A stretch of DNA of 34,249 nucleotides from Candidatus Desulfaltia bathyphila (lineage in GTDB: Bacteria; Desulfobacterota; Desulfobacteria; Desulfobacterales; ETH-SRB1), in assembly GCA_014381545.1 (NCBI GenBank), contig JACNLL010000028.1, positions 1 through 34,249 on the forward strand, read 5' to 3'. Under the pieces are notes generated by a model. The model searched no databases, was not told where the DNA came from, and saw only the letters and a list, made by a program, of their open reading frames with translations. This document shows positions 12 to 4,384 of the stretch, piece after piece. A program made the translations under genes and the position numbers. Every line of letters begins with the position of its first letter. Position 1 is the stretch's first letter.

Positions 12-113
12 ATGGATTTTGAACTGTCAAGGTCGCAAAAAGAAATTAAGAAAGCTGCAAAGGATTTTGTAAAGGGTGAATTCAGCAAGGAGCTTGTCCT
101 TGAATTTGAGTGA
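12..113 (+). pseudogene. Remnant of acyl-CoA dehydrogenase N-terminus
   Basis: The 33-codon reading frame starts at an ATG and begins MDFELSRSQKEIKKAAKDF, then stops at TGA after LVLEFE. This matches the opening helix of acyl-CoA dehydrogenases, which normally run to about 380 residues. Nothing downstream restores the rest in any frame I could follow. The homology stops almost exactly where a short repeat (cttgcgggac) begins, so I infer a truncation by insertion or rearrangement. The call rests on recognising the N-terminal pattern by eye. Confidence 0.6.
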
Positions 114-177: not shown

Positions 178-372
178 ATTAGTTTATAAGTTGACGGGGT
201 GATTGAACTGAAGAACGTTGTTGACCCCAGTTTGAAAAATGTTCAATTTTGTTCAAGTTCAAGGAAGGGAAGAAAGACAGGACGTAGTTGACAAGGTTGA
301 ATGGCATCTTCGCTATAGCCAAAAAAAGAAATCATGTGATTCCAATCTGTTACAATAATCCTGAAAAATAAC

Positions 373-424
373 TTGACAAATACTCAATACGTTGAGTAAA
401 TTTACTCATAATATTGAGTAAATT
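373..424 (+). promoter_or_regulatory. Promoter with two tandem palindromic operators for the first DUF4143 ATPase
   Basis: A -35 element TTGACA (373-378) is followed after 18 bases by TAAATT (397-402). Two copies of a 22-bp direct repeat cover 381-402 and 403-424, and each copy is an inverted repeat. The first has TACTCAA/TTGAGTA arms at 381-387 and 391-397. The second has TTTACTCA/TGAGTAAA arms at 401-408 and 415-422. The palindromes overlap the spacer and -10 region, where a dimeric repressor would block transcription. The repressor is unknown; autoregulation is possible but not shown. Confidence 0.6.
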
Positions 425-445
425 GTTAACTATTGGATAATACAC

Positions 446-1627
446 ATGTTTAAGAGACAAGTTTATAAAGTTATTTTTGACAGACTTTCTGAACCAAGGC
501 GCTTTATTCAGATATTGTCAGGCCCCAGGCAAACTGGCAAGACCACCCTCGCCCGCCAGCTTATTGATGAAATTAGTATGCCAAGCCATTATGCTTCAGC
601 AGATGAACCAACTTTGAAAAGCGCCTCATGGATTGAACAACAATGGGAAACAGCGCGCATAAAAACAAAAAACAATAAGGCACTTTTTGTTCTCGATGAG
701 GTTCAGAAGATTACCGGATGGTCTGAAACGGTTAAGCGCCTGTGGGATGAAGATTCTGCAAAAGGTCTTTCGCTGTATGTGATTGCACTCGGTTCTTCAC
801 CTCTTCTAATACAGAGTGGACTATCAGAAAGTCTTGCCGGACGGTTTGAGACTATTCCTGTTACTCACTGGTCTTTTTCGGAAATGCGCAAGGCCTTTGG
901 ATGGAACATTGAGCAATATATTTTCTATGGAGGATATCCTGGTTCTGCTGATTTGATCAATGATCCCAAACGGTGGTCTAATTATATTATGGATTCTCTT
1001 ATAGAGACCACTGTCTCACGAGATATCCTGCTTATGAAACGGGTGGATAAACCTGCCCTTCTTCGTCGTCTTTTTGAACTTGGTTGCACATACTCAGGAC
1101 AAATTCTTTCATATCAAAAAATGCTGGGACAGCTTCAGGATGCCGGCAATACCACAACCCTTGCTAATTATTTAAATCTGCTTCAAGGAGCAGGATTGTT
1201 GATGGGTTTGCCTAAATATGCGGGACAGAAAATTCGCCAGCGGGCATCTAGTCCAAAACTCCAGGTGCTCAATACTGCTCTTATGACAGCACCGTCACAA
1301 CTTACTCTTGCCGAAGCCAAAAGTAATCCTGAATACTGGGGCAGATTGGTTGAATCGGCGGTCGGCGCCACGCTGGTCAATGGACTTAAGGATACTCGGG
1401 CAGAAGTTTTCTACTGGTCAAGCCGCAATCGAGAAGTAGATTTTGTTTTACGGCAAGGGAATAATCTGGTCGCCATCGAGGTAAAAAGCAACCTCCAGAA
1501 AACGAGTATCCCGGGTATTGAGGCTTTTTCAAAAGAATTTAATGTTAAAAGAAAATTGCTTGTAGGAGCCCAGGGGATCCCTCTGAAGGACTTTCTACTC
1601 ACACCACAGGAAAAGTGGCTGGAATAA
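446..1627 (+). CDS. AAA+ ATPase, DUF4143 family (first copy)
   Basis: A 393-aa protein. It has a Walker A motif GPRQTGKTT at residues 26-34 and Walker B VLDEVQ at 82-87. A sensor-like LGSS precedes SLAGRFE. The C-terminal part carries EVDFVL...AIEVKS, the PD-(D/E)xK-like core of the DUF4143 C-terminal domain. This architecture is the common bacterial 'ATP-binding protein' family of about 380-420 residues, whose cellular role is largely unknown. The ribosome site is weak, so translation may be low. The gene stands alone, preceded by tandem palindromes and bracketed by cttgcgggac repeats. It differs clearly in sequence from the second copy at 1988, so it is not a recent duplicate. Confidence 0.88.
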   Translation: MFKRQVYKVIFDRLSEPRRFIQILSGPRQTGKTTLARQLIDEISMPSHYASADEPTLKSASWIEQQWETARIKTKNNKALFVLDEVQKITGWSETVKRLWDEDSAKGLSLYVIALGSSPLLIQSGLSESLAGRFETIPVTHWSFSEMRKAFGWNIEQYIFYGGYPGSADLINDPKRWSNYIMDSLIETTVSRDILLMKRVDKPALLRRLFELGCTYSGQILSYQKMLGQLQDAGNTTTLANYLNLLQGAGLLMGLPKYAGQKIRQRASSPKLQVLNTALMTAPSQLTLAEAKSNPEYWGRLVESAVGATLVNGLKDTRAEVFYWSSRNREVDFVLRQGNNLVAIEVKSNLQKTSIPGIEAFSKEFNVKRKLLVGAQGIPLKDFLLTPQEKWLE

Positions 1628-1879: not shown

Positions 1880-1954
1880 AAATAGTCTCGACCAATTTAC
1901 GATGCTTCGTAAAATAGTCTTGACCAATTTACGATGCTTCGTAAAATAGTCTTG
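1880..1954 (+). repeat. Tandem 32-bp repeats containing perfect palindromes
   Basis: Two full copies of a 32-bp unit and the start of a third run from 1880 to 1954. Each full unit carries the perfect inverted repeat TTTACGA-tgct-TCGTAAA, at 1896-1913 and 1928-1945. Each ends in a TTGACC or TTGACT that resembles a -35 box. The last TTGACT (1952-1957) appears to be the working -35 of the following gene. The spacing and symmetry suggest operators for a dimeric regulator. Confidence 0.65.
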
Positions 1955-1978
1955 ACTTTCAGTTTGTTCCTATATAAT
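1952..1978 (+). promoter_or_regulatory. Promoter of the second DUF4143 ATPase
   Basis: TTGACT (1952-1957) and TATAAT (1973-1978) are separated by 15 bases; TAATAA (1975-1980) would give 17. The -10 lies only about 9 bases before the ATG at 1988, so the mRNA would be leaderless or nearly so. This also argues against the upstream in-frame ATG at 1934, which would place the promoter inside the gene. Confidence 0.55.
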
Positions 1979-1987
1979 AATATCGTC

Positions 1988-3187
1988 ATGAAAAGATCAT
2001 ATTCTTCAATCCTTACCGAACATTTAAGGCAATATCGACAGATGATATTTGTCGTCGGGCCGAGACAGGTAGGAAAAACGACCCTATGCACGGATCTGGC
2101 CAAGAAGTATCATTATTTCAATTGGGACAACCAGGATCATCGTGCGTTGATTATCGAAGGACCAAACAGGGTTGGCGAAGAAATCGGCGTTAGACAATTA
2201 CGCGAAAAACCACGGATTATTATTTTTGATGAAATTCACAAGTATTCAAAATGGAAGGATTTTCTCAAAGGCTTTTTTGATGTTTATAGCCCGGGAGTAA
2301 GAATCATCGTAACCGGAAGCTCCAGACTGGATGTCTTTAAAAGGGGTGGGGATAGTCTTATGGGACGATATTTCCTATATCATCTTCATCCCATCTCAGT
2401 GCGAGAAATTATAGGAACCCGGCTTGCTGGAAATGAGATACAAATTCCCAGGCCAATAGATCCAAAGGCGTTTTATTCATTGTATGCTTTTGGTGGTTTT
2501 CCCGAACCGTTTTTGAAGGCGAACGTAAGATTTTCAAACCGCTGGAAACGTCTCAGGCAGCAGCAACTATTTACTGAAGATATCAGAGATCTTACGCGAG
2601 TACAGGAAGTACAGCAGATTGAATTGTTGGCCGAAACGCTGAAATATCAGACCGGTCAAATGATCAATTATTCGAAGCTTGCTAAAAAAATAAGGGTTTC
2701 AGTGGATACTATACGCCGCTGGATAAGGGTTTTGGAGTCGTTATATTATTGTTTTACCATACAACCCTGGTTTAGAAATGTGTCGAGGTCTTTGCTTAAA
2801 CAGCCCAAAATTTACCTTTGGAATTGGTCCCTCGTTGCGGATTCCGGCGCAAAGTCAGAAAACTTTGTCGCATCTCATTTATTGAAAGCCGTGCATTGGT
2901 GGACCGATAACGGATTTGGCGAATATGGACTGTATTTCCTTCGCGATAAGGACAAGCGTGAGGTGGATTTTCTTGTCACTCGAAATCAAGAGCCCTGGTT
3001 TATGGTAGAGGTAAAAACAGATGGCGGGAAATCCGTGAGCAAGAATCTGTTCCATTTTCAAAAACAAATTCGTGCACTTCATGCTTTTCAGGCGTCTTTT
3101 TCATTGGACTATGTTAATGTGGATTGTTTTTCAACAAAACAACCCACCATTGTTCCTGTAAAGACATTGTTATCTCAATTGGTGTAA
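1988..3187 (+). CDS. AAA+ ATPase, DUF4143 family (second copy)
   Basis: A 399-aa protein from the ATG at 1988. Walker A GPRQVGKTT lies at residues 24-32 and Walker B IIIFDEIHK at about 76-84, followed by VTGSSRLD. A winged-helix-like segment (YSKLAKKIRVSVDTIRRW) lies near residue 225. The C-terminus has REVDFLV...FMVEVKTD, again a PD-(D/E)xK-like core. I chose the internal ATG because a promoter with -35 and -10 boxes lies between 1952 and 1978. No ribosome site is visible, consistent with a leaderless message. The gene is preceded by two 32-bp palindromic repeats and bracketed by GGGGATGTCC motifs. The biological role of the family is not established. Confidence 0.87.
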   Translation: MKRSYSSILTEHLRQYRQMIFVVGPRQVGKTTLCTDLAKKYHYFNWDNQDHRALIIEGPNRVGEEIGVRQLREKPRIIIFDEIHKYSKWKDFLKGFFDVYSPGVRIIVTGSSRLDVFKRGGDSLMGRYFLYHLHPISVREIIGTRLAGNEIQIPRPIDPKAFYSLYAFGGFPEPFLKANVRFSNRWKRLRQQQLFTEDIRDLTRVQEVQQIELLAETLKYQTGQMINYSKLAKKIRVSVDTIRRWIRVLESLYYCFTIQPWFRNVSRSLLKQPKIYLWNWSLVADSGAKSENFVASHLLKAVHWWTDNGFGEYGLYFLRDKDKREVDFLVTRNQEPWFMVEVKTDGGKSVSKNLFHFQKQIRALHAFQASFSLDYVNVDCFSTKQPTIVPVKTLLSQLV

Positions 3188-3262
3188 AAGAAGGGAGCTT
3201 CCCAGTAGCAACCGTCCCATCGCTAAAGAGCTGCTATACACAAGCAAAAACTATGGACAGTT

Positions 3263-3272
3263 GGGGATGTCC
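3263..3272 (+). repeat. GGGGATGTCC repeat copy downstream of second ATPase
   Basis: This 10-mer is identical to 1716-1725 and lies in the same orientation, so the two copies bracket the second ATPase and its operators. A related sequence, gcaggacatccctaat, lies at about 3654-3669 in opposite sense. These may be termini of small repeats. Confidence 0.35.
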
Positions 3273-3352
3273 GTAAAATTTCAACATTTGTGGAAGAGGG
3301 CGGGGTTTGTGGGTTATGCTTTAAATCAATTAATTGGAAAGGAGAAATAGTT

Positions 3353-3637
3353 ATGGCAACATTTATTATGTTAGGCAAGTACACATCCGAATCATTAAAG
3401 GGCATAAGCCCGGAGCGTACTGATCAGGCAGCAGATCTGATAAAAAAGTGCGGTGGCGAAGTTAAATCTATTTATGCTTTACTTGGCAAGTATGACTTAA
3501 TAGTTATTGTTGATTACCCCAGCGTAGAACAGGCGATGAAGGCTTCTATTGCTCTGAACAAACTAACTGGTGTTGCATTCACTACATCGCAGGCAGTTTC
3601 AGTGGAAGAATTTGATAAGATGATAACCGAGATTTAA
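3353..3637 (+). CDS. GYD domain-containing small protein
   Basis: A 94-aa protein starting MATFIMLGKYTSESLKGISPERT, preceded by GGAAAGGAG (3336-3344) eight bases before the ATG. The Y-T-x-x-x-L-K-G-I opening and the ALLGKYDLIVIVDYPS segment are characteristic of the GYD family (PF08734), a ferredoxin-like fold related to Lrp/ACT-type dimeric alpha-beta barrels. The family has no settled function; a ligand-binding or stress role is only a guess. The upstream in-frame frame back to 3290 lacks a ribosome site. It stands alone between the ATPase and Mut7-C genes. Confidence 0.8.
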   Translation: MATFIMLGKYTSESLKGISPERTDQAADLIKKCGGEVKSIYALLGKYDLIVIVDYPSVEQAMKASIALNKLTGVAFTTSQAVSVEEFDKMITEI

Positions 3638-3778: not shown

Positions 3779-4384
3779 ATGTCAAAAGCAATTTTCAGGT
3801 TTTATGAAGAACTCAACAAGTTTTTGCCGAAGCGCAGGAGAAAAACCGACTTTCAGGTAAATTTCAAACGGAGAAGGTCGATAAAGGAAATGATCGAGGC
3901 GTTCGGAGTTCCCCACACTGAAATAGATCTTATTTTGGTGAACGGAAAATCCGTGGAATTCACTTACAGGCTGCAAGATGGAGACCGGGTCAGCATATAT
4001 CCTGTTTTTGAATTCCTCAATATTGAAAATGTTACCAGGCTCAGAAAAATCCCTCTTCGCAAAACAAAATTCATAGCTGAGGCTAATTTGGGATATATAG
4101 TTAACTACATGAGAATATTAGGGTTTGACGTATGTTTCGATCCCTCACTCTCGGCGTGGCAAATAATTGAAATATCAAAAAAGGAAAACAGGATAATTTT
4201 AACCAAAAACAGAAAGCTTCTTAAATTCAAAGAGGTAACCCACGCTATCTTTGTACGTCCGGGAACAACAGGTGAAGAGATAAAAAGAATCATAGATTAC
4301 CTTGATATTAAATACAGCATAAAGCCTTTTTCAGGGAAACCAAAAAAAAGAGCGTACAAACCAAATGGTGTCAAAGCAATGTAG
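3779..4384 (+). CDS. Mut7-C RNase domain protein with ubiquitin-like N-terminus (variant)
   Basis: A 201-aa protein. The first 85 residues (RFYEELNKFLP...FTYRLQDGDRVSIYPVFE) match the ThiS/ubiquitin-like Ub-Mut7C domain. The rest (FIAEANLGYIVNYMRILGFDVCFDPSL...RIILTKNRKLL) matches the Mut7-C PIN-like RNase domain. Two things are odd. The usual aspartate in the FLAD-x-x-LG motif is replaced (FIAEANLG). The C-terminal cysteine knuckle usual in this family is absent, the protein ending FSGKPKKRAYKPNGVKAM. It may therefore be an inactive or altered member. The gene ends two bases from the converging HIT/GalT-like gene. Confidence 0.78.
   Translation: MSKAIFRFYEELNKFLPKRRRKTDFQVNFKRRRSIKEMIEAFGVPHTEIDLILVNGKSVEFTYRLQDGDRVSIYPVFEFLNIENVTRLRKIPLRKTKFIAEANLGYIVNYMRILGFDVCFDPSLSAWQIIEISKKENRIILTKNRKLLKFKEVTHAIFVRPGTTGEEIKRIIDYLDIKYSIKPFSGKPKKRAYKPNGVKAM

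Follow-up and report, generated by a model that had tools for sequence, protein, structure and literature searches.

Members of a DUF4143 ATPase family probably control themselves by a private switch, often spreading as a compact switch-and-gene unit

Type II toxin-antitoxin systems and WYL regulators use operator palindromes with repression by default, and RAYT transposases are solitary genes lying beside REP palindromes. PDC-S01, a phage defence candidate represented in PADLOC by models combining AAA_14 and DUF4143, is described as very abundant in two papers (PMC12988326, PMC13356809). One of these, on archaeal defence, ranks it as the fourth most common defence system across prokaryotes and states that most such candidates still await validation (PMC12988326). 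In Thermus thermophilus an AAA_14/DUF4143 gene, TT_P0211, was up 6.6-fold in the joint presence of plasmid DNA and Argonaute (PMC4406477), a rise that fits an inducible gene and says nothing on an operator. Among open PMC texts, as represented by their titles and the start of their abstracts, no description of operators in the DUF4143/AAA_14/PDC-S01 family was found.

We analysed a window of 34,249 nt from Candidatus Desulfaltia bathyphila (contig JACNLL010000028.1) that carries two neighbouring DUF4143 genes, matching the PDC-S01 models at 9e-178 (gene 1) and 1.2e-55 (gene 2). Our main reading, to which we assign a probability of roughly 0.75, is that these genes are self-contained cassettes under their own control, the winged helix of each protein reading a gene-specific palindrome at its own promoter. 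The features of the locus are listed in Table 1.

Table 1 Features of the gene 2 locus and of gene 1 (positions in the window; strand "." for features assigned to neither strand).
Feature	Position	Strand	Description
Gene 2	1988-3187	+	AAA_14 ATPase, winged helix and PD-(D/E)XK-like domain; DUF4143, PDC-S01 match
Nuclease-like domain, residues 286-399	2843-3184	+	nearly invariant E291, D327, E341, K343
Winged-helix part, residues 208-277	2609-2818	+	AlphaFold2 model
Modelled recognition helix, residues 239-251	2702-2740	+	AlphaFold2 model, co-variation peak
32-bp tandem repeat array	1880-1956	.	two full copies and one partial; repeat search
Putative operator palindrome 1	1890-1919	.	30 bp, GACCAATTTACGATGCTTCGTAAAATAGTC; 12/15 pairs complementary; core 1896-1913
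Putative operator palindrome 2	1922-1951	.	same 30 nt as palindrome 1; 12/15 pairs; core 1928-1945
Putative -35 box	1952-1957	+	TTGACT; overlaps third, partial repeat
Putative -10 box	1973-1978	+	TATAAT, spacer 15; alternative TAATAA 1975-1980, spacer 17
Shared block	1896-3199	+	common to a 96% relative in another family; flanks unrelated
Gene 1	446-1627	+	another DUF4143 protein with its own operator
Gene 1 putative operator	381-420	.	palindromes 381-398 and 403-420, 18 bp, period 22

Domain architecture of the gene 2 protein

The gene 2 protein scored above the Pfam cut-offs for AAA_14 and DUF4143. NCBIfam held no family for the gene 1 or the gene 2 protein, and a sequence search of solved structures returned nothing better than E 0.69. 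An AlphaFold2 model built from 58 sequences (pLDDT 91.9, pTM 0.92) predicted helices at residues 208-220, 228-235 and 239-251 followed by strands at 255-260 and 274-277, which together make up a winged helix. The family alignment used below comprised 275 genes with >32% identity, >300 aa, a match start before residue 30 and 100 nt of upstream sequence; the Walker A and B residues were kept in 273-275 of these sequences. A structure search with residues 1-285 gave the archaeal ATPases SSO1545 (2fna; Z 14.9, rmsd 3.3 over 247) and PABY2304 (2qen; Z 14.3, rmsd 3.4 over 246) as best rows. The Walker residues and the modelled winged helix thus place the protein in the same class of AAA-type ATPases with a winged helix.

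The residues E, D and E-x-K constitute the active-site motif of the PD-(D/E)XK nuclease superfamily. In the C-terminal domain the corresponding residues were conserved in nearly all 275 sequences: E291 in 274, D327 in 274, E341 in 270 (D in four) and K343 in 265 (R in five). Modelled alone, this domain had an element order fitting the alpha-beta-beta-beta-alpha-beta core. Its nearest rows in a VIA search were EcoT38I and Can2, and many leading rows were restriction enzymes, Can2, McrC or Hjc (Z ≤7.4), together with some not named as nucleases, e.g. Tk-TIP26. The best Foldseek hit was McrC (E 3.5e-3), and TnsA also occurred among the structural neighbours. Since the structural matches reach only these values, the nuclease-fold assignment draws mainly on the conserved residues.

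Tandem palindromes and promoters across the family

Two 32-bp repeats had been noted ahead of the second DUF4143 gene, running into its -35 box, and this arrangement was confirmed. The direct repeats (1880-1911 and 1912-1943, 32 nt each) were 97% identical, and a partial third copy of 13 nt (1944-1956) followed. Alignment with relatives shows the natural unit to be a 30-bp imperfect palindrome (GAC...GTC) plus a 2-bp TT linker; in the relatives L059 and L060 (80-82% identity) all 15/15 pairs are complementary in the better copy, making its 30 bp a perfect palindrome. The core TTTACGATGCTTCGTAAA was found twice, once in each palindrome. With up to two mismatches allowed in its 14 fixed bases, shuffled windows contained a mean of 0.12 cores, and none of 100 shuffles reached two. 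In the whole 2.07-Mb genome the only exact matches were the two sites before gene 2; at ≤2 mismatches there were 12 sites, the same as for a reversed-pattern control, and the 10 non-exact ones all had two mismatches.

Three other accounts of the array were rejected. Chance repeats were ruled out by the shuffles and by the family statistics given below, and a regulon of exact sites in this genome by the finding of both window operators at their own promoters alone. An RNA hairpin or attenuator for gene 2 is disfavoured because the good palindromes sit upstream of the predicted transcript start.

Gene 1 was said to have the same architecture. What held was the use of gene-specific tandem palindromes; the geometry did not, with 18-bp palindromes at a 22-bp period at gene 1 vs 30-bp palindromes at 32 bp at gene 2, so that the two are analogous, not identical. 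The gene 1 operator consists of TACTCA-N6-TGAGTA twice and, with ≤1 mismatch, was found in the genome at its own promoter only. Judged by eye, it was kept in eight of 10 relatives (~40-87% identity) with readable upstream sequence, imperfectly in L206 and L215; it was not kept in L205 and L209, and in L209 the recognition helix differs too. The genome contained 18 DUF4143 matches, and only three of the 15 other DUF4143 genes inspected (L003, L005, L013) had a clear inverted repeat. Distant DUF4143 genes often carried inverted repeats around the -35 box (e.g. L212, L218, L220, L222, L224, L227, L229); L220, L224 and L229 had a common TACCA-GAAA...TTTCATGGTA flanking the -35 box, which represents another operator layout. 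A dispersed repeat, GACTTGCGGGACGT..., was located around both window genes (114-141, 166-193, 1637-1664), with related pieces upstream of the gene in L028 and also in L342 and L343. A long G run at ~1669-1681, between genes 1 and 2, may be an assembly or slippage spot.

The protein search led first to a relative at 96% identity from a different family of the order, and next to relatives at 54-60% and ~40% identity. Upstream of their genes the layout recurred with palindromes of other sequence; in many cases the left end of the last palindrome contained the -35 box, and the ATG came 2-6 nt past its right end. The sample comprised 200 fetched regions plus loci returned by searches, a subset of the matches listed, with pseudogene rows mostly skipped. 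In a first set, which includes distant paralogs from this genome (189 loci after dropping L016, without a hit, and L187, without a start; 185 of them unique and 184 having 100 nt of upstream sequence), 131/184 carried a significant tandem repeat or palindrome in the 100 nt before the start, compared with 5/179 downstream and 8/183 inside the gene; the 78 strong tandem repeats had period 32 in 74 cases and 33 in four. A later set contributed 108 unique loci out of 109 after L273 was dropped. The enlarged set, reduced to 80% identity, gave 113/184 within 100 nt upstream, 9/182 after the stop and 2/184 inside the gene; the period was exactly 32 bp in 68 of 73 significant tandem repeats, and palindromy exceeded that of dinucleotide shuffles. 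At the chosen score 66 of the 275 family genes were without an operator. The operator cores differed from clade to clade, and this combination of a spacing fixed at 32 bp with a variable core sequence is new.

Two plasmids also showed the layout by eye, one from Chlamydiota (L339) and, partially, one from Rickettsiales (L338). The latter, from Candidatus Bandiella, carries a 55% relative of gene 2 that has been annotated as two separate genes and is located between PIN/VapC toxin-antitoxin pairs. In the plasmid collection, 347 records had a gene 2 relative, most frequently from rhizobia and agrobacteria, and two plasmid loci (L350, L351) showed TTTCAATTGGTCA-like repeats ahead of the gene. Seven phage records had a relative, all at <60% identity; a pattern search of viral contigs gave no match with gene 2.

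The original prediction also moved the gene start to 1988 and expected a leaderless mRNA. The start is at 1988 and not at 1934, because relatives align from the ATG at 1988 and the frame opens ≤21 nt upstream of the equivalent start in L030, L031, L033 and L034. Promoter statistics covered 277 genes, with no length filter. The last TTGAC within 75 nt of the start lay at -39 to -33 in 179 of these (base shuffles expect 2.0), a count that is free of the restriction placed on the -10 statistics, which consider only hexamers that follow a TTGAC located no more than 45 nt from the start. In the 185 genes with such a -10-like hexamer, the median distance from its end to the start codon was 7 nt, which predicts a transcript start on the start codon; the predicted leader was ≤5 nt in 183 of the 185, the search range limiting this distance by design. 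Shine-Dalgarno-like motifs preceded 27/277 relatives vs 14/19 other genes, hand-picked from the window's ORF list. Promoter spacing thus predicts, in line with the expectation for gene 2, transcripts that begin at or beside the ATG family-wide.

Co-variation between winged helix and operator

Grouped by residues 238-241, the 209 of 275 genes with an operator score ≥30 had coherent half-sites. The clearest groups were SDKT (28 genes; core TTTCGGAAT, half-site GACTaTTTCGGAAT), SHRA (18 genes; core TTTTTGC, half-site TTTTTGCtTa), SPNT (11 genes; GACTATTt.GCA), SYNS (nine genes; GACTATTTTTCAtTa), SFDS (nine genes; GACAATATTagGtTA), SIHT (seven genes; core TTATGAAGT, half-site GACTATTATGAAGTt), SVDT, to which the window's own gene belongs (seven genes; core TTTACGA, half-site GACtAaTTTACGAta), and SQDS (four genes; GACcATTcCACGAta). 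Groups AHET and AHTT had diffuse half-sites of low information. Because such groups also follow phylogeny and the grouping is uncorrected for kinship, co-variation was assessed on path-disjoint pairs, whose connecting paths do not overlap on a tree from which the winged-helix columns had been left out; 104 pairs were obtained, 93 of them at 38-95% identity.

Across these 93 independent pairs, no window tracked core similarity as well as residues 236-244, which cover the turn and the first part of the modelled recognition helix. The best 9-column window was 236-244 (partial r 0.36), the best 5-column window 238-242 (0.40) and the best 13-column window 232-244 (0.375). The set 236-241, 243, 244 gave r 0.30 with a permutation p of 0.0016, and pairs formed solely from genes fetched after the idea had been formed (n 24) gave r 0.57, p 0.0019. 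The helix-operator correlations were moderate, with partial r 0.30-0.42. Half-site positions 9-12 and 12-15 peaked at residues 234-245 and positions 1-3 at 215-225, close to where the first helix of the winged-helix domain ends; positions 4-5 (49-58) and 6-8 (168-178) peaked outside the winged helix. The control, 30 nt after the stop codon, peaked at 389-399 and 339-349 and had no peak in the winged helix. By single-column mutual information, the best columns for positions 9-12 were 240 and 239, with other columns for other position sets.

An all-pairs scan restricted to ≥40% identity also ranked the winged helix first (0.254 vs 0.167 best elsewhere, 9 columns). It was not first when the scan covered all pairs or the new set alone, and in an early scan an ATPase-domain window (86-94) came near the helix (0.272 vs 0.281). 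For a five-column contact set, 98, 24, 16 and, in the last identity range (25-40%), 323 of 2000 matched random sets were equal or better. The co-variation of winged helix and palindrome proposed as a check was seen in independent pairs and for positions 9-15, which supports the original interpretation; it was not seen for positions 4-5 and 6-8, nor in the all-pairs scan when this covered all distances or the new set alone. Many copies seem to own a private operator matched to their own helix, which is new.

Shared unit, rival readings and known systems

The shared block of the window is 95% identical in DNA to the relative in another family (L028/L057), similarity ending at the first palindrome and 12 nt past the stop. 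It contains one ORF only and no adjacent antitoxin gene. Six other genomes of the genus contained no close ortholog of gene 2 (best ~40% identity). Among 34 gene-disjoint pairs with ≥85% DNA identity and available flanks, 25 shared the operator and ORF only. The block started 45-115 nt before the ATG in 28 of the 34 and ended between -30 and +35 nt of the stop in 29 (medians, 76 nt before the ATG and 3.5 nt after the stop). Exceptions sharing more were L132-L133 (the whole available stretch), L193-L198, L067-L154 and L263-L268; L058-L061, with a truncated copy, shared less. Operator and gene were also found together in other families and phyla. Because neutral flanks should still align at such identities, operator and ORF appear to be a transferred or relocated unit; that the two often move as one, as these alignments suggest, is new. 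A two-gene toxin-antitoxin system was rejected on the single ORF of the shared block, and likewise of 25 of the 34 pairs.

Several repeats and copies surround gene 2. A short repeat ending GGGGATGTCC occurs on either side of it (1708-1725 and 3255-3272), and the stretch 3261-3304 recurs in L341 and L343. Copies of the downstream GYD-domain gene (3353-3637) exist at 96% on a different contig of this genome and at 97-98% in three congeneric genomes. The gene at 3779-4384 joins a ubiquitin-like (Ub-Mut7C/ThiS) part to a Mut7-C RNase domain.

Such boundaries, operator on one side and stop codon on the other in 25 of 34 close pairs, could mean that the palindromes are primarily the ends or targets of a one-gene mobile element in which the ATPase-nuclease moves itself, and the combination of an AAA ATPase with a domain that has TnsA, Hjc and McrC among its structural neighbours would suit that role. 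We regard this as unlikely: few genes have palindromes or tandem repeats past the stop (9/182), and neither target-site duplications nor a strong junction motif appeared at the unit ends of 67 loci (mean common substring 4.21 vs 4.11, sd 0.10, none ≥7 nt). The missing duplications also speak against a DDE-type insertion sequence. A search through the GYD gene in the three congeneric genomes found no clean empty site; L342 and L343 have no cassette in the ~1.5 kb upstream of that gene, where their sequence differs from the window's, and L341 has too little upstream sequence to tell. A broader version, in which DUF4143 genes would be self-addressing one-gene elements, the palindrome serving at once as operator, as address of the ATPase-nuclease and as 5' end of the moving unit, with many orthogonal pairs per genome, seems doubtful to us.

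Operators alone do not name their ligand, and a separate host regulator, different in each clade, might bind the palindromes instead. This is quite improbable, in that the cores follow the gene's own recognition helix, the pairing of operator and gene recurs in other families and phyla, the shared block containing a single ORF, and both window operators were found at their own promoters only. The suggestion that each ATPase, or a cognate factor, recognises its own site is thereby narrowed: the gene's own protein is favoured, and a cognate factor is the less likely reader, given that in many cases the gene moves with its operator and no companion gene. Although short duplications in tandem are easily generated, functionless slippage of an AT-rich promoter is a very remote explanation for a period of 32 in 68 of 73 non-redundant genes of different sequence, for palindromy beyond dinucleotide shuffles, and for two operator copies altered alike between G000 and G021.

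Under autoregulation by the gene's own protein, the winged helix would read a 30-bp palindrome that is specific to the gene and recurs every 32 bp, or about three helical turns. The operator overlaps or abuts the promoter, and in most relatives binding would block RNA polymerase; repression of its own promoter is the most likely action of the protein, as judged from co-variation and promoter anatomy. The ATP state or an invader-derived signal may lift repression, the output would be nuclease action, and the transcript would start at or next to the ATG. In the clade of gene 2 the best palindromes, two at gene 2 itself, are placed upstream of the -35 box, the degenerate third copy alone covering the promoter, so that activation instead of repression is possible there.

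If this reading is true, the likely DNA target of the protein can be read from its own promoter, and exchanging a few helix residues should exchange the site. The family would offer a natural series of orthogonal winged-helix/operator pairs, which could explain many copies per genome without cross-talk, and a leaderless start would be the property of a gene family. The private operator is also a direct handle on PDC-S01, and binding is directly testable.

Operator, promoter and cassette boundary are not described in the available text on PDC-S01 (PMC12988326, PMC13356809) and are present here. SSO1545 and PABY2304 resemble residues 1-285, the aligned range ending before the nuclease-like domain. 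In contrast to RAYT genes and their REP palindromes, the palindromes here occupy the promoter, 5' of the gene, and copies of the window core are not scattered through the genome. Type II toxin-antitoxin systems and the WYL regulators BrxR and CapW likewise have transcription factors controlling defence genes; there a separate antitoxin or regulator binds, whereas here the reader would be part of the ATPase-nuclease. Autoregulation through palindromes is of a known kind, and a DNA reader that would be part of an ATPase-nuclease is new.
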